Shown: positions 27,474 to 39,103 of the stretch, piece by piece | Position numbering within the stretch: position 1 is the first letter of the stretch | How the letters are laid out: every line of letters starts with the position of its first letter | Origin: Oceanibaculum nanhaiense | Lineage (GTDB): Bacteria > Pseudomonadota > Alphaproteobacteria > Oceanibaculales > Oceanibaculaceae | DNA: 64,000 nt | Direction: 5' to 3' | Assembly: GCF_002148795.1 (NCBI RefSeq) | Contig: NZ_MPOB01000007.1 | Coordinates: forward strand, 1 to 64,000 | Made by a program: the position numbers and the translations under genes | Notes under the pieces: model-generated | Database searches by the model: none | The model's input: the letters and a program-made list of their open reading frames with translations, nothing else | Told to the model about the DNA's origin: nothing

Positions 27474-28688
27474 ATGCCGGAGCTACCCTTGTCGGATATA
27501 AACATAACCAATTCGTCGATTCTGGAAATAGACCGGGTCCATAAGCGGTTCGGCGTGCATCATGCGGTGCGGGATGTGACGATCCGGGTCCGGGTCGGCG
27601 AATTCCTGACGCTGCTGGGCCCCAGCGGTTGCGGCAAGACCACCCTGCTGCGCATGGTCGCCGGCTTCGAGACGCCGAGCGAGGGCGAGATTCGCATCGC
27701 CGGCCGGCGCATGAACGAGGTGCCGCCCTACGAGCGTCCCATCGGCATCGTCTTTCAGAATCTGGCGCTGTTCCCGCACCTGTCCGTCGGCGAGAACCTT
27801 GCCTATGGCCTGCGCATCCGGCGCATGGCGCGCGCGGAAATCCACCGGCAAATTGCCGAGGTGCTGGCTCTGGTCGATCTGACCGGGCTGGAAGACCGCC
27901 GGGTGCATGAGCTTTCCGGCGGCCAGCGCCAGCGCGTGGCGCTGGCCCGCGCCCTTGTCATTCGTCCCAAGGTGCTGTTGCTCGATGAGCCGCTGGGCGC
28001 GCTGGATTTGAAACTCCGCCGCCAGTTGCAGCAGGAGCTGAAGCGCATCCAGCAGCGCGTCGGCACGACCTTCGTGTTCGTCACCCACGACCAGGAGGAA
28101 GCGCTGACCATGTCCGACCGCATCGCCGTGATGCAGGGCGGGCAGGTCGAGCAGCTGGGCACGCCGGAAGACGTCTATGCCCGGCCGCGCACGCCCTTCG
28201 TGGCGCAGTTCGTCGGCGACACCAACTTCCTGACCGGCCGTGTCGTCGCGAGCGGCCCCGGCGGCATGCAGATTCGCCTCGACAGATTGGACCGTGTCGT
28301 TGCCGCAGCTGCTCCAGATTCCTCTAGGCACCACCTGCCGACGGGAACCCGTGTCGGCTTGTCGATCCGGCCAGAGCATCTGGTGAAGGCCGGAACGCAG
28401 GACGGGCTGGCCCTGACCTTCGAGGGCACGGTCGTGGAGCGCAGCTATATCGGCGCCAGCACGCGCTACACGCTGGAGGCCGATGGCGAGAGCTATGTCG
28501 CGGTCATGGCGGATTCCGACGCGGGCGTTGCCGCCCTGCAGCCCGGCCAGCGGACAGTTTTCGGCTGGGTGCCGGAACGCGCGGTCGTGGTGCCGCTCGA
28601 TGCCATGGTCATGCCGCCGGAAGAGCGATCCGAAACGATACCGGACGCTCCGGCTAATCCGGCACTTGCCGCCCTGCGCGGTTACTGA
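27474..28688 (+). CDS. ABC transporter ATPase, PotA-like
   Basis: A 404-residue ATPase of the polyamine/opine class. Walker A is GPSGCGKTT (49-57). The Q-loop is IVFQNLALFPHLS, the signature is LSGGQRQRVALARAL, Walker B is LLLDEPLGALD, and the switch is FVTHDQEEAL. The C-terminal TOBE domain spans about 285-385. It is the first gene of the cassette; the two cognate permeases are at the far end (33882 and 34775), with three enzyme genes between, an unusual split. A modest ribosome binding site (AACGGGA) precedes the ATG. Confidence 0.9.
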   Translation: MPELPLSDINITNSSILEIDRVHKRFGVHHAVRDVTIRVRVGEFLTLLGPSGCGKTTLLRMVAGFETPSEGEIRIAGRRMNEVPPYERPIGIVFQNLALFPHLSVGENLAYGLRIRRMARAEIHRQIAEVLALVDLTGLEDRRVHELSGGQRQRVALARALVIRPKVLLLDEPLGALDLKLRRQLQQELKRIQQRVGTTFVFVTHDQEEALTMSDRIAVMQGGQVEQLGTPEDVYARPRTPFVAQFVGDTNFLTGRVVASGPGGMQIRLDRLDRVVAAAAPDSSRHHLPTGTRVGLSIRPEHLVKAGTQDGLALTFEGTVVERSYIGASTRYTLEADGESYVAVMADSDAGVAALQPGQRTVFGWVPERAVVVPLDAMVMPPEERSETIPDAPANPALAALRGY

Positions 28689-28725: not shown

Positions 28726-29799
28726 ATGCCGAAACGTCCTTTCCGGTCCCTGCCGGTCCGCTCCATGCCGGCGCTCGTCGCGCTTGCGGCTGTCGCGGTC
28801 ATGGCAGCCAGGCCTGTTCAGGCGACCGACCTGTTGATCGCCACCTGGGGTGGCGGCGTCGAGAAGGTGTGGGAAACCGCCTTCGCCGAACCCTTCACCA
28901 AGGAGACCGGCATTAATGTGAAGATCGTGCCGGTACCGACGCCGGAGGCGCAGCTGCGCGCGCAGGCGGGCAACCCGCAATATAACGCCGTCATGGTGAC
29001 CTATCCGCAGGGCGCCAATTTGATGCGCGACGGCATGGTGGAACTGCTGGACCCGGCGGAGCTGCCGGACACGGCGGACACCAATCCGCGCTACCTGATG
29101 AAGAATGCCGACGGCAAGCTGGCCGGCGTCAGCCCCTATTTCATGTATTACGGCATCGCCGTGAACACCGACGAGGCGAAGCCGGCGGACTTCAAGTCCT
29201 GGGCCAATCTTGGCGACGCCAAATGGAAGGGCAAGCTGGCGATCACCCGGCCGATCTATCTGTCCTCCTACGATCTGCCGATCCTGTCGAAGGCGATGGG
29301 CGGCGATGAAAAGAATGCCGGTCCGGGCCTCGACCTCCTGCGCAAGATCGTCCCGAACGCCCTGACCACCTACAGCTCCATCGCCCATATGAACGGGCTG
29401 CTGACGCGCGGCGAAATCGTCGCCGGGCCATACTATTCCGGCCGGGTCTGGCACCTGCGTCAGCAAGGGGCGAAGAACGTCACCATGGTCGTGCCGGAAG
29501 AGGGCGCGCTGATGATCCCCTATCTGCTGGTCATGCCGAAGAATGCGAAGGACATGGCGGCGACGAAGCAATTCATGAACTACGTCTCCAAGGCGGAGCC
29601 GCAGCTGCGCGGTTCCGTGCTCGGCGGCTATCTGCCGCTGAACGCGAAGGCGAAGCTGCCGGCCGAAGCCGAGGAGCAGATGGGCATGACCCTGGCCGAG
29701 CTGATGACCAGGCTCTATCAGCCGGACTGGGCCTTCATCGCCGACAACCAGACCGACCGCATCAACACGCTGGAAAAGCTCATCGCCGAAGCGCGCTGA
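28726..29799 (+). CDS. PotD/PotF-like periplasmic binding protein
   Basis: A 357-residue extracellular solute-binding protein with a signal peptide (about 1-30, ending VQA-T). LLIATWGGGVEKVWETAFAE and FTKETGINVKIVP are typical of the spermidine/putrescine-binding-like family. Polyamine ligand residues cannot be verified by eye, and the neighbouring ligase and amidase genes suggest an amide or carboxylate ligand instead. AAGGGAGAA selects the ATG at 28726 inside a longer open frame. An 11-bp perfect hairpin follows the stop codon. Confidence 0.88.
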   Translation: MPKRPFRSLPVRSMPALVALAAVAVMAARPVQATDLLIATWGGGVEKVWETAFAEPFTKETGINVKIVPVPTPEAQLRAQAGNPQYNAVMVTYPQGANLMRDGMVELLDPAELPDTADTNPRYLMKNADGKLAGVSPYFMYYGIAVNTDEAKPADFKSWANLGDAKWKGKLAITRPIYLSSYDLPILSKAMGGDEKNAGPGLDLLRKIVPNALTTYSSIAHMNGLLTRGEIVAGPYYSGRVWHLRQQGAKNVTMVVPEEGALMIPYLLVMPKNAKDMAATKQFMNYVSKAEPQLRGSVLGGYLPLNAKAKLPAEAEEQMGMTLAELMTRLYQPDWAFIADNQTDRINTLEKLIAEAR

Positions 29800-29867: not shown

Positions 29868-31553
29868 ATGGACAGAACCGCCACCATGAGCACTCTTCGC
29901 TTGCCCATAGAGACCTTCATCGACCGCCTGTCGCGCATGACGCCGGAGGAACGCCGCAAGGCGATCGAGGCCGATCCTCTGCCCGCCAATGTCGGCGCCC
30001 TGCTCGACGAGGCGGCCGCGGAGGTCGGCGACAAGCCCGCCTGGAATTTCTTCGAGGCCGGCATCGTCACCACCTACAGCGAGCTTGCCGCAGAGGTGAA
30101 CCGCACGGCCAACGCACTGCGCGCCTGGGGAGTGACCAGAGGCACGCATGTCGCGGCGATGCTGCCCAACATCCCGGCCATGCCGACGATCTGGCTGGCG
30201 GTGGCGAAGCTGGGCGCCGTCATGGCGCCGGTCAATGTCCGCTACACCGGGCGCGAGCTGCGCTACATCGTGAATGATTCGGAGGCGGCGTTCCTGATCC
30301 TCCATGCCGATTACCGGGAGTTGCTATCGCCGGATCTGGACAGCGAGGAGCAGGTGCTCGCCCTGCCGGCCGGGCGCATCGCGCTGCTGGGGGCGGAGGA
30401 TGCCGGCCCCTACCGGCGGTGGGAGGAGATCGCGGCGGGCCATTCCCCGGTGCTGTCCCTGGACTATGCGCCCGGTCACGACGATCTGCTGAACATCCAG
30501 TACACCTCCGGCACCACGGGCTTCCCCAAGGGCTGCATGCTGAGCCACCGGTACTGGCTGAGCGCCGGCAAGGTGAACGGGATGCGCGACGGCAAGCGGC
30601 TGGAGCGCGTTCTGGCCTCCACGCCGTTCTTCTATCTCGACCCGCAATGGCTGCTGTTGCTGGCCTTCCACCAGCGCGGCACACTTTTTGTCGCCAACCG
30701 GCAGAGCGCCAGCCGCTTCGCCGGATGGCTGGCCGAGCACCGCATCCATTTCTGCCTGTTTCCGGAAGTGGTCTACAAGCAGCCACCCAGCCCGCGTGAC
30801 GCCGATATCTGCCTGCGCCGCGCCAACATCTATGGCGTGCGCAAGGAAATCCACGCCGATCTGCGCCAGCGTTTCAACGCGCCGGCGATGGAGGCCTTCG
30901 GCATGACCGAGGTTGGGCCGACGCTGTTCGTGCCGCTGGAGGCGACGGAAATGGTCGGCTCCGGTTCCTGTGGCAAGCCGACGGCGTTCCGCGAATGCCG
31001 GATCGTCGATGAAAATGGCACGGATGTGCCGCAGGGCGAGATCGGCGAGCTGGTGGTGCGCGGCAAGGGGCTGATGCAGGGCTACTACAAGAAGCCGGAA
31101 GCCAACCGTGACTCCTATTTCGGCGATTGGTTCCGCACCGGCGATCTCTTCCGCCAGGACGAGCGCGGCTATTTCTACATCGTGGGCCGGCTGAAGGACA
31201 TGGTGCGCCGCGCCGGCGAGAATGTCGCCGCGCGCGAGGTCGAGGCGGTGCTGAAGAACCTGCCGGCGGTGATGGACGCCGCCGTGGTGCCGGTCCCCGA
31301 CGATATGCGCGGGCAGGAGGTGAAGGCCTACATCGTCCTGCAGCCCGGACAAAGCCAGGACGATGCAATGCTGCAGGCCATCCTGCGCCATTGCGACCTG
31401 AACCTGGCGGCCTTCAAGGTACCGCGTTACGTGGAATTTACGGAAAACTTGCCGCGCACGCCGTCGGAGAAGATCGCCAAGGGCGAGCTGATCAAGGCGA
31501 AGGCCGATCTGCGTGTCGGTGCCTATGACCGCGTCGATGGCTGCTGGCGCTGA
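29868..31553 (+). CDS. AMP-dependent acyl-CoA ligase-like enzyme
   Basis: A 561-residue adenylate-forming enzyme (555 if translation starts at ATG 29886, which has a slightly better upstream context). The core motifs are complete: YTSGTTGFPKG (P-loop), EAFGMTEVGPT, DWFRTGDL, GRLKDMVRRAGENVAAREVE and a C-terminal TPSEKIAKGEL containing the catalytic Lys. It should activate a carboxylate as acyl-AMP and then acyl-CoA in the cytoplasm. The substrate is unknown; the gene lies between an ABC binding protein and an amidase, so the imported compound or its hydrolysis product is the likely substrate. Confidence 0.88.
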   Translation: MDRTATMSTLRLPIETFIDRLSRMTPEERRKAIEADPLPANVGALLDEAAAEVGDKPAWNFFEAGIVTTYSELAAEVNRTANALRAWGVTRGTHVAAMLPNIPAMPTIWLAVAKLGAVMAPVNVRYTGRELRYIVNDSEAAFLILHADYRELLSPDLDSEEQVLALPAGRIALLGAEDAGPYRRWEEIAAGHSPVLSLDYAPGHDDLLNIQYTSGTTGFPKGCMLSHRYWLSAGKVNGMRDGKRLERVLASTPFFYLDPQWLLLLAFHQRGTLFVANRQSASRFAGWLAEHRIHFCLFPEVVYKQPPSPRDADICLRRANIYGVRKEIHADLRQRFNAPAMEAFGMTEVGPTLFVPLEATEMVGSGSCGKPTAFRECRIVDENGTDVPQGEIGELVVRGKGLMQGYYKKPEANRDSYFGDWFRTGDLFRQDERGYFYIVGRLKDMVRRAGENVAAREVEAVLKNLPAVMDAAVVPVPDDMRGQEVKAYIVLQPGQSQDDAMLQAILRHCDLNLAAFKVPRYVEFTENLPRTPSEKIAKGELIKAKADLRVGAYDRVDGCWR

Positions 31554-31573: not shown

Positions 31574-33028
31574 ATGACGGAATTCTGGCAGAAGCCCGCG
31601 ACCGAACTGGCGGCGGCGATCCGTGGCAAGGCACTGTCCTCGCGGGAGCTGGTGTCGGCGACGTTGGACCGGATCGAGCGGTTGAACGGCGACACCAATG
31701 CCTTCGCGCTGGTCGATGCCGAAGGCGCGCTGAAGGCCGCCGATGCTGCCGATACGGCGGTCGCGCGCGGTGACGATCTGGGGGCGCTGCACGGCCTCCC
31801 GGTGACGGTGAAGGATCTGGTGCCGACCGCCGGGATGCGCACGGCGCTGGCCTCCTACATCTTCGCCGACAACGTGCCGGCGCAGGATGCCGAGGCGGTC
31901 GCCCGCATCCGCAAGGCCGGCGGCATCATTCTCGGCAAGACCACCACGCCGGAACTGGGCCACAAGGTGCTGACCGACAGCCCGATGCATGGCATCACCC
32001 GCAACCCCTGGGCGCTGGACCGCACCTGCGGCGGTTCCAGCGGCGGTGCGGCGGTCGGTGTGGCGATGGGCTTCGGGCCGCTGGCCGTCAGCACCGATGG
32101 TGCCGGCTCCGGGCGCATTCCCGCCGCCTGTTGCGGCATCGTCGGGCTGAAGCCGACCGTCGGCGGGGTGCCGCACGAAACCTCGCCGGACCTATTCGGC
32201 AATCTCACCTGCCTCGGCTCGATGGCCCGCACCGTGGAAGACACGGTGCTGCTGCACAATGTCATGGCCGGCCCGGACGCGCGCGACCCCTGGTCGCTGG
32301 GGGGATCGGCCACGCCGCTGTCCCTTGCTGGCGACCCGCTTTCCATCCTCAAGGGGCTGAAAATCCGCTGGATGCCGCGCATGGTGAACGACTATCTCGA
32401 CCCCGATATCGAGGCGCACACCGCGAAAGCGGTCGGGGCGATGACCGATGCCGGCGCCCGACTGGTGGACAAGCCGGCGAGTCTGGATTGGAGCCTGGAG
32501 TCCGCCCTGGTGCTGATGCGCGGCTATCAGGCCGCCCGGTTTGGCCAGGTGCTTGAGAAATGGCGCGACAGGATGGACCCGACCATGGTTTCGGCGCTGG
32601 AGGAGGGGCTGGCGCAGGACATCGGAACCTTGCAGAAGGCCCTGCCGGAGCGCACCGCGCTGTATCGCCGGGTGCAGGCGATCTTTGACCATGCTGATAT
32701 TCTGGTCACGCCGACAATCGCCGCCCCGCCGCCGCCGGCGACACAGCGCGCCGACGAACCGCTGGTGATCGACGGCAAGCCGCTGGGACCGCTGCGGCGG
32801 ACCTGGTACTGCTACACCATCCCGTTCAACCCCAGCGGCAATCCGGCGATGTCGGTCCCGTGCGGCTTCACCCGCGACGGGCTGCCCATCGGGTTGCAGA
32901 TCGTCGGGCCGTGGCATGCCGAACAGCGGCTCGTCGCCGTGGCCGCCGCCCTGCAGGCGCTGATGCCCTGGCAGGGGAACTGGCCGGCGCTGGCCGGGGC
33001 AGCGGGTGCCTCGGGGGGTTCGGCATGA
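31574..33028 (+). CDS. Amidase (amidase signature family)
   Basis: A 484-residue amidase with an intact Ser-cisSer-Lys triad: K80 in LPVTVKDLV, the GGSSGG loop at 153-158 and nucleophile S179 in STDGAGSGR. Length is normal for the family (about 450-500). It would cleave an amide to a carboxylate and an amine or ammonia. A very strong ribosome binding site (GGGGGAGGAAG) sits before the ATG, 20 bases after the ligase stop. Its stop overlaps the next gene by ATGA, so the amidohydrolase-fold protein is translationally coupled to it. Confidence 0.92.
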   Translation: MTEFWQKPATELAAAIRGKALSSRELVSATLDRIERLNGDTNAFALVDAEGALKAADAADTAVARGDDLGALHGLPVTVKDLVPTAGMRTALASYIFADNVPAQDAEAVARIRKAGGIILGKTTTPELGHKVLTDSPMHGITRNPWALDRTCGGSSGGAAVGVAMGFGPLAVSTDGAGSGRIPAACCGIVGLKPTVGGVPHETSPDLFGNLTCLGSMARTVEDTVLLHNVMAGPDARDPWSLGGSATPLSLAGDPLSILKGLKIRWMPRMVNDYLDPDIEAHTAKAVGAMTDAGARLVDKPASLDWSLESALVLMRGYQAARFGQVLEKWRDRMDPTMVSALEEGLAQDIGTLQKALPERTALYRRVQAIFDHADILVTPTIAAPPPPATQRADEPLVIDGKPLGPLRRTWYCYTIPFNPSGNPAMSVPCGFTRDGLPIGLQIVGPWHAEQRLVAVAAALQALMPWQGNWPALAGAAGASGGSA

Positions 33029-33870
33029 TCATCGATTATGGCAGCCGGCCGCCGGTCCCGGCCTTCGCGCAGACCGCCACCACGCACCTGCAGCGCTATC
33101 GCACGGTCTATCAGTCCAGCGAGAAGGCGGCCGCCCGACAGGACAGCTTCGAGGAGTATCTGGCCGCCTATGATGCGCTGGGGGCCGAACATATCGTGGT
33201 GAAGGCGCGCGACCTCGAGACCACCTTCGGCTGGCGCATCTCCAACGAGGATGTCGCCGCCTTCTGTCGCGAGCAGGGACCGCGCTTTGTCGGTTTTGCC
33301 GGCGTCGATCCCAACAAGGGGATGATTGCCGTCCGCGAGCTGGACCATGCGGTGCGCGAGCTGGGGCTGCGCGGCCTCAATCTGCAATGTTTCGAACACA
33401 AGCTGGCGATCAACGACAAGAAGATGTACCCGCTCTATGCCAAATGCATCGAGCTGGATATCCCGGTGAACCTGCATTGCAGCATCAATTTCGCCACCTC
33501 GACGCTGATGGAGTTCGGCCGCCCGGCACTGCTGGACGAGGTGATGGTGCATTTCCCGGAGCTGCGGGTGTGTGCCGCGCCACCGGGCTTCCCCTGGGTG
33601 CACGAGCTGATCGGCGTCGCCTGGCGGCATGCCAATGTGCATATCGGGCTGGTCGCGGTGCGGCCGAAATATCTGGCGGTTGCCGGGTCGGGCTATGAGC
33701 CGCTGCTGCAATATGGCCGCACCATCCTGCAGGACCGCATCATCTTCGGCTCCGCCTATCCGCTGATGCCGCTTGAGCGCACCGTCCGCGAGATCGAGGC
33801 GCTGCCGCTGGAAGAGGATGTGCGCCGCAAGTGGCTATACGGCAACGCCAAGCGTTTCCTGCGGCTGTAA
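33025..33870 (+). CDS. Amidohydrolase-2-fold protein lacking most metal ligands
   Basis: A 281-residue TIM-barrel protein resembling the ACMSD/amidohydrolase-2 group (COG2159): the start MIIDYGSRPP, FVGFAGVDPNKG, GLRGLNLQCFEHKLAINDKK, PVNLHCSIN, GFPWVHELI and the end WLYGNAKRFL. Expected metal ligands are mostly replaced. The N-terminal HxH is YGSRP, the His before G-x-PW is Pro (APPGFPW), and the Asp of the usual GSDYP motif is Ala (FGSAYP, about residue 245). Only the His in NLHCS is kept. The frame is intact and overlaps the amidase gene by four bases, so it is likely functional, possibly without metal or as a partner of the amidase. Confidence 0.75.
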   Translation: MIIDYGSRPPVPAFAQTATTHLQRYRTVYQSSEKAAARQDSFEEYLAAYDALGAEHIVVKARDLETTFGWRISNEDVAAFCREQGPRFVGFAGVDPNKGMIAVRELDHAVRELGLRGLNLQCFEHKLAINDKKMYPLYAKCIELDIPVNLHCSINFATSTLMEFGRPALLDEVMVHFPELRVCAAPPGFPWVHELIGVAWRHANVHIGLVAVRPKYLAVAGSGYEPLLQYGRTILQDRIIFGSAYPLMPLERTVREIEALPLEEDVRRKWLYGNAKRFLRL

Positions 33871-33881
33871 GGAAAATGGCG

Positions 33882-34778
33882 ATGTCCCGATCCACCACGA
33901 TACCGGTCTCCGCCCCCGCTGCCGGGAGCCCGCGCCGCCGCCTGCCGCTGTCGCAGGCGCTGCTGCTGGCGCCCGCCGTGCTGCTGCTGGCGCTGTTCGC
34001 CATCAGCGTGGTGCAGATGGTGGCGACCTCCTTCACCGGCAGGGACGGGTTCACGCTGGCGCTGTACCAGGAGTTCTTTTCCCGGCCGGACTATATCGAG
34101 ATCTATCTGCGCACGATTGGCGTGTCTTTTCTGGTGACGTTCTTCTCGATCCTGCTCGGTTATCCCATCGCCTTCGGCATCTGGCGCTACAAGGGCAACC
34201 GCAACCACCTGATGATCCTGGTGATCCTGCCCTGGCTGGTCAGCATCGTGGTGCGCACCTATGGCTGGATCGTGATCCTGGGGCCGCGCGGGCTGATCAA
34301 CGAGTTCCTCGGCTGGGTCGGGGTGATCGAATCGCCGATGCGGCTGATGTTCAACACCACCGGCGTGGTTATCGGCCTGGTGCATGTGCTGGTGCCGTTC
34401 ATGATCATCTCGATCCTGTCGGTGCTGCTGCATCTCGACCGCAAGCTGGAGGAAGCCAGCATGAGCCTGGGCGGTCGGCCGCTCTACACCTTCTGGCGGG
34501 TGACCCTGCCGCTGTCGCTGCCGGGCGTCGTCTCCGGCGCGATGCTGGTCTATCTGATGTCCACCGGCGCCATCGTCACGCCGATCCTGCTGGGCGGCGT
34601 GCAGGACCGGATGATGGGCACGCAGATGTATCAGGAGGTGATCCAGACCTTCAATTTCCCGAAAGGCTCGATGCTGGCCTTCCTGCTGCTGCTGGCCGGG
34701 CTGGCGGTGATCCTGCCGGTGCAGACGCTGGAACGGCGCCTGTCGGCGGCGACGGGCAGCGAAAGGAAACAACCATGA
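33882..34778 (+). CDS. ABC transporter permease, PotB-like
   Basis: A 298-residue MetI-like permease with six membrane segments (first about 24-46) and the EAA loop LDRKLEEASMSLGGRPLYTFW near residues 186-206. I choose ATG 33882 because AAGGAA ends seven bases before it; an ATG two codons upstream is also possible. It directly follows the amidohydrolase-fold gene and overlaps the next permease by four bases. It is presumably energised by the ATPase at 27474, at the head of the cassette. Confidence 0.88.
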   Translation: MSRSTTIPVSAPAAGSPRRRLPLSQALLLAPAVLLLALFAISVVQMVATSFTGRDGFTLALYQEFFSRPDYIEIYLRTIGVSFLVTFFSILLGYPIAFGIWRYKGNRNHLMILVILPWLVSIVVRTYGWIVILGPRGLINEFLGWVGVIESPMRLMFNTTGVVIGLVHVLVPFMIISILSVLLHLDRKLEEASMSLGGRPLYTFWRVTLPLSLPGVVSGAMLVYLMSTGAIVTPILLGGVQDRMMGTQMYQEVIQTFNFPKGSMLAFLLLLAGLAVILPVQTLERRLSAATGSERKQP

Positions 34779-35575
34779 CCGCGATCCGCTGGAGCCAGGT
34801 TGGCTTGTGGAGCCTGCTGCTGTTCCTGCCGGCCCCGATCATCATCGTCATCGCCGCGTCCTTCAGCGATGCCGGCTATATCCGCTTTCCGCCGGGCGCG
34901 CTGTCGCTGCGCTGGTATGTGGAGTTCCTGTCCGATGCGCGCTGGATGCAGGGCTTCGCCACCAGCCTGCTGCTGGCCGCGGCCGGCGCCGTGATCAGTT
35001 CGATGGCGGCCTTTCTGGCGGCGCTGGTCGTCGCCCGGCGGCGGTCCCGGTTTTCCAGCATCTTCGAGACCGCGGTGCTGACGCCGATCCTGTTTCCGCA
35101 TGCCGCACTGGGCGTGGCGATGCTGGCGCTGGTGTCGATGTTCCATGTCTATGGCAGCTTCGCCGGCCTGCTGCTGGCGCACTGCATTATGACGCTGCCT
35201 TATGCCTACCGGCCGATCTCGGTCAGCCTGCGCAAGCTGGACAGCGCCATGGAGGAGGCGTCGATGAGCCTCGGCGCGCGACCGTGGGAGACCTTCTGGC
35301 GGGTGACCTTCCCGCTGGTTAGGCCCGGCCTCATCACCGCGCTGCTGTTCAGCTTCATCCTGTCCTTCGACGAGGTGACGGTGACGATGTTCCTGGTCGG
35401 CCCGCATGTCACCACCCTGCCGGTGCAGATCTATTCCTTCATCCAGGAAAGCGGTACGCCGGTGGTGGCGGCGATCTCCACCACGCTGGTGCTGTTCACG
35501 CTGCTAATGGTGATGCTGCTGGAACGGCTGGTGGGGCTGGAATTCTTCGTCGAGCCGGATAGGGGGCGGGCATAG
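34775..35575 (+). CDS. ABC transporter permease, PotC-like
   Basis: A 266-residue MetI-like permease. It has six hydrophobic segments (near 8-28, 66-88, 100-125, 130-150, 190-212 and 236-256) and an EAA loop, LDSAMEEASMSLGARPWETFW, close in sequence to that of its partner. The ATG overlaps the stop of the preceding permease (ATGA). It is the last gene of the LysR-controlled cassette; after it comes a region of integrase debris. Confidence 0.88.
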   Translation: MTAIRWSQVGLWSLLLFLPAPIIIVIAASFSDAGYIRFPPGALSLRWYVEFLSDARWMQGFATSLLLAAAGAVISSMAAFLAALVVARRRSRFSSIFETAVLTPILFPHAALGVAMLALVSMFHVYGSFAGLLLAHCIMTLPYAYRPISVSLRKLDSAMEEASMSLGARPWETFWRVTFPLVRPGLITALLFSFILSFDEVTVTMFLVGPHVTTLPVQIYSFIQESGTPVVAAISTTLVLFTLLMVMLLERLVGLEFFVEPDRGRA

Positions 35576-36175: not shown

Positions 36176-37363
36176 TTAACCGAACAGATCGAGCGGATTG
36201 TTGCGCCGAAGCTTGCGGACGGCGAACAGCACGGCGACAGACCCCATGACGATCGTCGCCAGGAATACCGTGCCGACAATATCGAGCGACAGGGTGAAAC
36301 GCAGTCTCGTCGCATCGCCGACCAACTCGTAGATCAGCGCGGTGATGCCGATGGAGGGGATAAAGGCGCCGACGCCGATGAGCACCGCGATTTGCAGCAC
36401 CAGCGCGATGAAGAACATATCCCGATACCCCATAGCGCGCAGCACGGCATATTCGGAGATGTTCATATCGATGATGCTGTAGAGCGCCTGCATGACGAAG
36501 ACCGCACCGATGAAGATGCCGACGGCCAGGCCGAAGCCGAGAATGATGCCAATCGGCGTCTGGAAGATGAAATAATCCCGTTCCCCGGCGATGAATTCGG
36601 CATGGGTGAACACCTTTGCCCGATCGCCCAGGGCCGCCGCGACGGCATTGCGCACGCCAAGCAAGTCCGCCCCCGGTTCTATGGTCAGCAAACCGAGCGA
36701 CAACCGGTCGAGCGGCAGCTGGAACAGCCGGTAATAATTCAGGTCGCTGAAGATGAAGCTGCCATCGATCGTAAAGTCCGGGCCAAGCCCGTACAGGCCG
36801 ATCACGCGCATCTCCGGTGCCAGTGTGGCGCCGGGGCTTTGCAGGTACAGGCGCTGTTCCCCGCCATTTTCCAGCCGATCGATGATCGGGATGAATTTGC
36901 GCCGCGAGCGGCTGTCGAGCAGGGCGGCGTCCGGCAGCTTCAGATAGGGCAGCGCCTGCATCACCTCCGGCAGATCCAGCACCGGCCGGCTGGGATCGAA
37001 AGCGATGAACCGGGCGGACATGGCCGTGCCGTCATAGGGATTACGCGCTTGCGAAATAATCGCATAGAACGGCCTGGCATCGGCAACGCCCGGTACGGCA
37101 AGCGCTTTATCCATAAGGGAGCGCGCGAACCAGGGTGGCGAATAGGCCATGGTTTCGAATTGCGGGCCGGTGATAAACAGGTCGGCCTGCAGCGCACGGG
37201 GCAGGTTCAGCGCGCTGCCGACCAGGGCGTTCATGAAGCCGGCTTGCGCGAAGACCAGCACGATGGCGACACAGATGCCGGAGAAGGTGCCGAACAGCCG
37301 CAGCCCGATATGACGCAATTGGCGGATGGCCAAGCGGGTGGAGAACGCCGTGGCGATGCGCAT
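36176..37363 (-). CDS. DevC-like ABC exporter permease (FtsX/MacB type)
   Basis: A 395-residue membrane protein with one N-terminal membrane segment (about 20-44), a periplasmic domain (45-265) and three C-terminal segments (near 272-296, 315-345 and 360-382). This is the FtsX/MacB topology. AVLRAMGYRDMFFIALV is the conserved loop. DevC-type permeases work with a membrane-fusion protein and an ATPase to export lipids or small molecules to the outer membrane or beyond. It is the third gene of the leftward unit (ATPase, fusion protein, permease), overlapping the fusion-protein gene as ATGA. Confidence 0.85.
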   Translation of the reverse strand: MRIATAFSTRLAIRQLRHIGLRLFGTFSGICVAIVLVFAQAGFMNALVGSALNLPRALQADLFITGPQFETMAYSPPWFARSLMDKALAVPGVADARPFYAIISQARNPYDGTAMSARFIAFDPSRPVLDLPEVMQALPYLKLPDAALLDSRSRRKFIPIIDRLENGGEQRLYLQSPGATLAPEMRVIGLYGLGPDFTIDGSFIFSDLNYYRLFQLPLDRLSLGLLTIEPGADLLGVRNAVAAALGDRAKVFTHAEFIAGERDYFIFQTPIGIILGFGLAVGIFIGAVFVMQALYSIIDMNISEYAVLRAMGYRDMFFIALVLQIAVLIGVGAFIPSIGITALIYELVGDATRLRFTLSLDIVGTVFLATIVMGSVAVLFAVRKLRRNNPLDLFG

Positions 37364-38409
37364 CAGAAATCGGTGAGCTGAATTCGTACTGTCATTTCCG
37401 CCCCGATCAGCGGAGGCAGGGCCTTTGCCGGATCCACCTCGATCTCGGCTTCGACGATACGGGCGTCGCGGCCCGCCAGGACGTCGGTGGTCGGCCTTTC
37501 GCTGCGATAGACCCGGTTGGCGATCCGCGCGACCTTTCCGGTTACCGGTGCCGCCAGGACATCGGAAGAGATGGTGACCGACTGGCCGGGGCGAACCAGG
37601 CGAGCATCCGTCGCATCGATCTCGGCCACGACCATCAGATGATCGGTATCGGCCATGCTGAGAAGGCCTTCGGCATCTATCGCCGCGCCGGGCCGGGCGG
37701 TGAGGGTCAATATCGTGCCGCCGATGGGCGCACGGATGATATCCTGGTCCTGTTCCGCCCTGGCGCGCGCCAGTTCCGCCGCGGCCAGTTCGATGGAAGC
37801 CATGGCAATCTGCTCGTCGATGGCACGCACTTCGGTCAGCGCCCGCAGGCTGGCTTCCGCCTGGCGCAGGTTTTCGCGCGCGCGCTGCATCTCCAGGGAC
37901 CGCAGTTCGTTGGTGTCGTCCGAGATGATCTCGCGGGCGACCAGGGAACGGCCGCGTTCCACCTGGCGTTCCGCGCGCTTCAGCTCCGCCGCACGCATGG
38001 CCACCAGGGCTTTCTGCGCCTCGATATCGGCTTGCTTCGCCCCCCAGCGGACCTGCTGCAGCTCCAGCTCGGCCAGGGCGAAGCTCTTTTCCGCGACAAT
38101 CACGGAAGCCGTACGCGTGTCGTAAGTATCAAGGATGGCGAGGATGTCGCGGCGTTTGACCCGCTGGCCTTCCTTGACCCGCAGCTCGGCGATGGTGCCG
38201 CCAAGGGACGGCCCGCTGACGACATGCACTCTCTCCACCGGCTCTATCCGTCCCCGCGCTATGACGGCGACGGGGTCGCCAGCCTGCATGGTGGCGGGTG
38301 CGGCGGTCGCGAGGGAGCCGGCATCCTGCCCCGCCAGCAGGAGTAGAGGCAGGCCGATCAGCAGGGCGGCAAAGAAAACCGCGCCATGGCGTTTGTATCG
38401 GCGGAGCAT
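37363..38409 (-). CDS. DevB/HlyD-like membrane fusion protein
   Basis: A 348-residue periplasmic adaptor anchored by an N-terminal membrane segment (about 10-30). It has a biotinyl-lipoyl half-motif (GGTIAELRVKEGQRVKRRDILAILD), a long coiled-coil hairpin (about 100-215), a second half-motif (IIRAPIGGTILTL) and a beta-barrel region. I choose ATG 38409, one base after the ATPase stop; the open frame continues upstream through the ATPase gene. It would join the inner-membrane exporter to an outer-membrane channel, which is not encoded nearby. Confidence 0.85.
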   Translation of the reverse strand: MLRRYKRHGAVFFAALLIGLPLLLLAGQDAGSLATAAPATMQAGDPVAVIARGRIEPVERVHVVSGPSLGGTIAELRVKEGQRVKRRDILAILDTYDTRTASVIVAEKSFALAELELQQVRWGAKQADIEAQKALVAMRAAELKRAERQVERGRSLVAREIISDDTNELRSLEMQRARENLRQAEASLRALTEVRAIDEQIAMASIELAAAELARARAEQDQDIIRAPIGGTILTLTARPGAAIDAEGLLSMADTDHLMVVAEIDATDARLVRPGQSVTISSDVLAAPVTGKVARIANRVYRSERPTTDVLAGRDARIVEAEIEVDPAKALPPLIGAEMTVRIQLTDF

Positions 38410-38410
38410 G

Positions 38411-39103
38411 TCAATGAGCCGCCTGGAGCATGCCGTCTTCGATATGCAGCCGCCGATCGGCAACATCGAAGATGCGTTCATCATGGGTCGAGATCAGCAC
38501 TGTGCAGCCAAGCTGGGTGGCGACATGACGCACCACATCCATCACCTTGCGGCCGGATTCGGCATCCAGTGCCGCGGTCGGCTCGTCGGCTATTATCATA
38601 TCGGGCATGCGAACCAGGGCGCGTGCCACGGCAACGCGCTGCTGCTGCCCGCCAGACAGGTTTTCGGGGTAATCAGCACCCCGGCCGCCCAGACCGACAG
38701 CTTCCAGCATCGCCTCGGCCCGCATGCGGTTCATCTCCTTGTCGGTTTCCGGCAACAGATGCAGACCCGATTCGACATTCTCGATCACCGGCAGCGATTT
38801 CAGCAGGTTATGGCGCTGAAACACAAAGCCGATGCGCTGGCGGACATCGAGCAGCCGCGATTCGGTCATGCCGGCCAGATCATGCCCCTGGAATTGCACA
38901 CTGCCTTCGCGGAACGGCCGCATCGCCCCGATGATCGTCAACAAGGTGGTTTTGCCCGATCCGGAAGGGCCGGTGATGATGATCACCTCGCCTTCACTGA
39001 CCGAAAAGGAAACTTTCTTCAGCACAACCCGCGCAAGAGAGCCTGTCCCATAGGAGTAGGACAGATCCTCCACGCGCAAGGATTCGACGATGCCACCCGA
39101 CAT
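38411..39103 (-). CDS. DevA-like ABC exporter ATPase (LolD/MacB type)
   Basis: A 230-residue ATPase. Walker A is GPSGSGKTT (45-53), the Q-loop is FVFQRHNLLKSLP, the signature is LSGGQQQRVAVARAL, Walker B is IIADEPTAALD and the switch His is in ISTHDERIF. This is the short LolD/MacB-class ATPase without a TOBE domain. It is the first gene of the leftward exporter operon. The promoter presumably lies in the AT-rich stretch around 39115-39200. Confidence 0.9.
   Translation of the reverse strand: MSGGIVESLRVEDLSYSYGTGSLARVVLKKVSFSVSEGEVIIITGPSGSGKTTLLTIIGAMRPFREGSVQFQGHDLAGMTESRLLDVRQRIGFVFQRHNLLKSLPVIENVESGLHLLPETDKEMNRMRAEAMLEAVGLGGRGADYPENLSGGQQQRVAVARALVRMPDMIIADEPTAALDAESGRKVMDVVRHVATQLGCTVLISTHDERIFDVADRRLHIEDGMLQAAH

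Follow-up and report, generated by a model that had tools for sequence, protein, structure and literature searches.

A clade of amidohydrolase-fold proteins lacking most canonical metal-site residues and linked to acyl-CoA synthetases

The locus and the amidohydrolase-fold gene

In the window, the whole 64,000-nucleotide stretch of DNA analysed here, consecutive forward-strand genes encode an ABC ATPase, a solute-binding protein, an acyl-CoA ligase, an amidase, an amidohydrolase-fold protein (AH2) and two permeases, in the following order:

27474..28688, forward strand: ABC transporter ATPase with a TOBE_2 domain (PotA-like), from a domain scan
28726..29799, forward strand: probable extracellular solute-binding protein, start placed at MPKRPF; the homologous position elsewhere holds an SBP_bac_8/PotD-like protein
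29868..31553, forward strand: AMP-forming acyl-CoA ligase (PF00501/PF13193), the near-constant partner of AH2
31574..33028, forward strand: amidase of the amidase-signature family (PF01425, E = 2.7e-98), ATGA-coupled upstream of AH2
33025..33870, forward strand: AH2, an HxH-less Amidohydro_2 TIM-barrel protein of 281 amino acids (open reading frame, Pfam PF04909, AlphaFold2 model)
33876..34778, forward strand: ABC permease 1 (PF00528, with position and synteny)
34775..35575, forward strand: ABC permease 2 (from position, with homologues in synteny)

The amidase stop codon and the AH2 start codon overlap as ATGA at 33025-33028, and the AH2 reading frame runs uninterrupted from its ATG at 33025 to the stop at 33870. 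Relatives of the ligase and the amidase in the PDB are too varied to name a substrate. On the reverse strand, at 36176-39103, lies an exporter-like set of three genes, recognised by eye from the sequence as an FtsX-like permease, a membrane-fusion protein and an ATPase.

AH2 belongs to the Amidohydro_2 family (PF04909), which it matches with 128.2 bits against a curated cut-off of 26.4 (E = 6.9e-37) over residues 37-281 and profile positions 35-289. Its AlphaFold2 model (pLDDT 94.2, pTM 0.92) has TIM-barrel topology, and the model and its Foldseek matches together identify the amidohydrolase TIM-barrel fold. PDB entry 3irs ranks first among these matches (TM 0.81), followed by gamma-resorcylate decarboxylase (gamma-RSD), LigJ hydratase, 5-carboxyvanillate decarboxylase and ACMSD; the best PDB matches include 2dvt. 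No family was assigned to AH2 in an NCBIfam search, and searches of the literature for BB4693, LigI and metal-independent amidohydrolases returned nothing on the AH2 family. A second PF04909 gene of the same genome (G000 C3) carries its own HAH and GTD motifs but is too distant for a useful alignment with AH2.

Metal-ligand replacement and conserved residues in the AH2 clade

Ligand positions were assigned by direct alignment with ligand-retaining relatives (L108, L109, L072 and L075, whose motifs read IDVHTH or IDFHIH; LFHTG or MFHTG; LAHPSFPW or AHSG; and FGSDFP or ASDWP) and by profile alignment to decarboxylases in the PDB. Four of the five signature residues of the metal site are replaced in AH2, and the β5 His alone is kept:

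33040..33048, forward strand: G6-S7-R8 at the β1 HxH position, from alignment with HxH relatives and 41 clade sequences; AH2 reads IDYGSRPP where IDxHxH is expected, with G6 and R8 replacing His
33475..33477, forward strand: H151, the β5 His typical of the metal-dependent amidohydrolase superfamily and the sole canonical ligand kept (motif NLHCSIN), invariant in 41/41 sequences
33580..33582, forward strand: P186 in place of the β6 His (motif CAAPPGFPW), from profile and direct alignments
33754..33756, forward strand: A244 in place of the β8 Asp (motif IIFGSAYP), from direct alignment and 41 clade sequences

The canonical metal site is thus firmly predicted to be unable to form. A preliminary description of this DNA had read the HxH, the His before G-x-PW and the Asp of GSDYP as replaced, and the direct and profile alignments bear out each of these readings, with no equivalent ligands found at shifted alignment positions.

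The same replacements run through a clade of 41 aligned sequences including AH2, its orthologues having been collected by a scan of the genome collection and a class search. These orthologues are 54-98% identical to AH2 and come from Alpha- and Betaproteobacteria, plus one MAG labelled Rokuibacteriota. Across the clade, position 6 is Ser, Gly, Ala or Asn and position 8 is Arg, Lys, Thr or Val, while position 186 is Pro in all sequences except one (40/41), which has Asp, and position 244 is Ala, Ser, Gly or Asn in the orthologues and never Asp. At positions 6, 8 and 186, His occurs in none of the 41 sequences, and the same is true of Asp at position 244. In a tree built without the ligand columns, by a quick method that leaves the placing of long branches unsure, the clade forms one group (SH-aLRT 100), and the ligand loss is best read as having a single origin.

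Selection on AH2 is strong. Nei-Gojobori counts against a single same-genus genome (G135) gave a dN/dS of 0.010/0.248 = 0.04 for AH2. The five other operon genes measured all have higher ratios, namely 0.12 for the amidase, 0.13 for the ligase, 0.18 and 0.10 for the two permeases and 0.22 for the ATPase, and AH2 is therefore the most strongly constrained of the six. Similarly, AH2 is the most conserved of the set at the close loci L002-L005, with an identity of 80-82%, whereas the ligase reaches 69-73% and the amidase 63-66%. As no clade sequence has any of the four canonical residues and dN is so small beside dS, the ligand loss goes beyond chance. The motif loss itself is all that would favour a decaying or frameshifted gene, or a misreading of motifs whose ligands lie at shifted alignment positions; against these, 40 intact orthologues share the residue pattern, dN/dS is 0.04, and around each of the four motifs the HxH-bearing relatives align with AH2 without ambiguity, so that the two explanations, even taken together, are rejected as extremely improbable. 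The gene is intact, as had been proposed from the sequence.

The clade also conserves a polar set of its own. H21, Y25, Y29, D95, E124 and H151 are invariant in 41/41 sequences, and charge is conserved at positions 60 (Lys/Arg), 213 (Arg/Lys) and 215 (Lys/Arg). K60, E124 and R213 are clade-specific relative to neighbouring groups, with H151 conserved as well, and conservation in the alignment and model is concentrated both in the fold and at polar residues of the barrel mouth. One of these residues is a candidate for a new catalytic function:

33394..33396, forward strand: E124, candidate new active-site acid/base, present in every clade sequence but not in sister groups

In the model, D95, E124 and H151 sit just after β3, β4 and β5, respectively, an arrangement that also bears on whether AH2 could still be a metalloenzyme, with a divalent metal bound at a shifted site formed by, for example, H151, E124, D95 and/or H21. 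Each of these four residues is invariant, and such a site would be comparable to the single β-metal sites of the NagA type, in which a β4 Glu and the β5 His are ligands. However, the β6 His of NagA-type sites is Pro in AH2, E124 lies four residues past the end of β4, and D95 is probably structural because it is kept across most related groups, including the HxH-bearing L108 and L109. A shifted metal site is therefore unlikely in our view, though it deserves to be taken seriously.

Gene neighbourhood of the AH2 clade

Gene context was counted at 40 orthologous loci of at least 8 kb and at 31 control loci around other PF04909 proteins. An acyl-CoA synthetase is present at 38/40 AH2 loci versus 6/31 control loci (Fisher p = 2e-11, a value that treats related loci as independent and is calculated over varying flank lengths). 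The two AH2 loci without a synthetase are L020, which begins close upstream, and L031, which extends for 8 kb on each side. Within the genus, the 8.1-kb block occurs in two of four genomes, and AH2 and the ligase are both missing from the other two.

The synthetase is not always of the same family. At three loci on two branches (L030/L044 and L113), the AMP-forming ligase is missing; AH2 instead has an ADP-forming synthetase (Succ_CoA_lig plus ATP-grasp_5) beside it or close by, and the transporters are of the TctC or TRAP type. Because the ADP-forming synthetase can replace the AMP-forming ligase, it is a function and not one gene family that is linked to AH2, and from gene content that function is acid activation with CoA, whatever the enzyme family. 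The orthologue at L113:8029-8883 (reverse strand), which sits among genes for a TRAP transporter, an ADP-forming acyl-CoA synthetase and hydantoinase A/B, has a third-position GC of 0.54 versus 0.67-0.76 in neighbouring genes and was possibly acquired recently.

Other neighbours are more variable. A related ABC ATPase is found at 31/40 loci, and the transporters vary between PotABCD-like, TRAP DctM and TctC types. An amidase like that of the window is present at 12/40 loci, the amidase and AH2 genes are adjacent at 11 loci, and further recurring neighbours include FAD-dependent oxidases (amine-oxidase or DAO type), a PuuC-like aldehyde dehydrogenase and a class III aminotransferase. Plasmid records show the orders ligase-AH2-amidase, with the amidase on the opposite side of AH2 from that in the window, and aminotransferase-aldehyde dehydrogenase-ligase-FAD oxidase-AH2. 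The acid appears to be supplied interchangeably by the amidase or by the amine-oxidising enzymes. The ligase-amidohydrolase module occurs on roseobacter plasmids of Paracoccaceae sp. La 6, Sulfitobacter alexandrii and Pseudosulfitobacter (L117, L118 and L119), in one case near purine-catabolism genes, and in many isolates of Pseudosulfitobacter pseudonitzschiae from diatoms.

This distribution bears directly on the amidase, to which the preliminary description had considered AH2 coupled, possibly as a non-catalytic partner. The coupling stands for the window, where the two genes share the ATGA overlap, but it does not extend to the clade as a whole. The overlap and the adjacency in 11 loci are what a partnership with the amidase would explain; however, the same AH2 residues are conserved at the 28/40 loci without a window-like amidase, and the plasmid records place that gene on the other side of AH2. 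With the amidase at 12/40 loci and an acyl-CoA synthetase at 38/40, a non-catalytic role beside the amidase is contradicted and has a negligible probability.

A non-catalytic role elsewhere, with AH2 as a pseudoenzyme that binds or regulates the acyl-CoA ligase or that binds substrate or CoA, accounts for more of the evidence. Four of the five canonical residues are lost, the linkage to an acyl-CoA synthetase is near-constant, and a protein that merely bound or stabilised the ligase would show the same conservation and linkage. Against such a role, the linked synthetase can belong to an unrelated family, which argues against a specific protein-protein partnership, the polar residues of the barrel mouth are conserved as well as the fold, and the clade retains an invariant His and Glu. 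We therefore regard a pseudoenzyme as rather unlikely, and a catalytic role appears more likely than a scaffold because of the strong constraint, the clade-specific charges at the barrel mouth and the invariant His/Glu pair.

Proposed role and comparison with known systems

On balance, we favour the reading of AH2 as a functional, metal-independent enzyme of the Amidohydro_2 fold with a rebuilt active site. A metal-free enzyme had been one of three options raised from the sequence, and it is plausibly the best of them: the canonical site is lost, constraint is strong and another polar set is conserved, and a metal-free acid-base mechanism would be the simplest reading since the canonical residues are absent. 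As acid activation with CoA appears to be the linked function, the position of AH2 would be adjacent to this activation in the breakdown of imported amine- or amide-derived carboxylates, and AH2 has probably been repurposed as a metal-free enzyme of a small catabolic pathway. More tentatively, the clade may have dropped the metal altogether and built a new acid-base site (E124/H151 with K/R60, R/K213 and K/R215) for an undescribed step directly before or after the CoA activation of amine- or amide-derived acids.

In such a pathway, the cell would take up an amine, amide or carboxylate compound, using the PotABCD-like ABC system in the case of the window. Accessory enzymes would convert it to a carboxylic acid; in the window this would be the amidase, and at other loci the aminotransferase, FAD amine oxidase and aldehyde dehydrogenase. 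This acid and its CoA thioester might then be processed by the ligase and AH2, one after the other. Within the AH2 barrel, K/R60, R/K213 and K/R215 could hold the anionic substrate, and the E124-H151 pair could serve as general acid-base catalysts, the step being a hydrolysis, a hydration or a C-C cleavage. A Schiff-base mechanism through Lys60 is unlikely, as this residue is replaced by Arg in 4/41 clade sequences.

The metal site defines the annotation and presumed working of amidohydrolase-superfamily enzymes, and the public record of one AH2-clade gene carries the label 'metal-dependent hydrolase'. Although four of the five signature residues have been lost from it, the AH2 clade evolves at a slower rate than the neighbouring genes and is linked to an acyl-CoA synthetase, and it may offer a defined, testable example of metal-free chemistry on a metalloenzyme fold. 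The neighbouring groups with other ligand subsets provide material for tracing the loss of the metal site.

Metal-independent hydrolysis has a precedent in the superfamily in LigI, a 2-pyrone-4,6-dicarboxylate lactonase (cog3618) in which the canonical His and Asp are still present and the Asp serves as the base. In contrast, AH2 is without the HxH, the β6 His and the β8 Asp and does not fit the LigI type. The decarboxylases of the superfamily, such as gamma-RSD, share the TIM-barrel fold and a profile alignment with AH2, and the 'decarboxylase-like' option raised earlier holds as fold ancestry (matches to ACMSD, gamma-RSD, LigW and LigJ). However, their metal-based chemistry is not simply transferable to AH2 because the known decarboxylases bind substrate through the metal (PMC8187880). 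Gamma-RSD uses a metal held by Glu8, His10, His164 and Asp287 (PMC8187880), and of these ligands AH2 keeps only the His164 equivalent.

The solved structure closest to AH2 is that of BB4693 from Bordetella bronchiseptica (PDB 3irs and 3k4w; sequence E = 3e-28, profile E = 5.8e-56, TM 0.81), an uncharacterised protein on a long branch of the tree. Like AH2, it lacks the HxH (DFRLRP) and the β8 Asp (GTAYP), but it shows the reverse pattern in the remaining ligands, with the β6 His kept (SSHGNWPW) and the β5 His lost. Amidohydrolase relatives without the HxH are thus already known, and a structure has been deposited for one of them. By alignment, loss of the HxH is widespread in this region of PF04909 and extends to several neighbouring groups that read Q/H/D, Q/H/N, C/H/Y or Y/L/S at the β5/β6/β8 positions, and no function was found for any HxH-less group seen here. 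These groups comprise L043 and L045-L052 (MAGs of the Reyranella/Enhydrobacter type), L053-L081 (mostly Actinobacteria), L089-L107 and L110; at each of the actinobacterial loci L068 and L058, three HxH-less paralogues lie in tandem. Their β1 motifs include the Reyranella type (IDLEC), the IDAVVN and IDAWAQ types and an actinobacterial type (IDTMIGFP). The Reyranella group is the sister of the AH2 clade (support 88) and, like the AH2 clade, has ADP-forming acyl-CoA synthetases nearby at some loci. Each of these groups keeps a different subset of the ligands, while the set of E124 with K60/R213 is found only in the AH2 clade.
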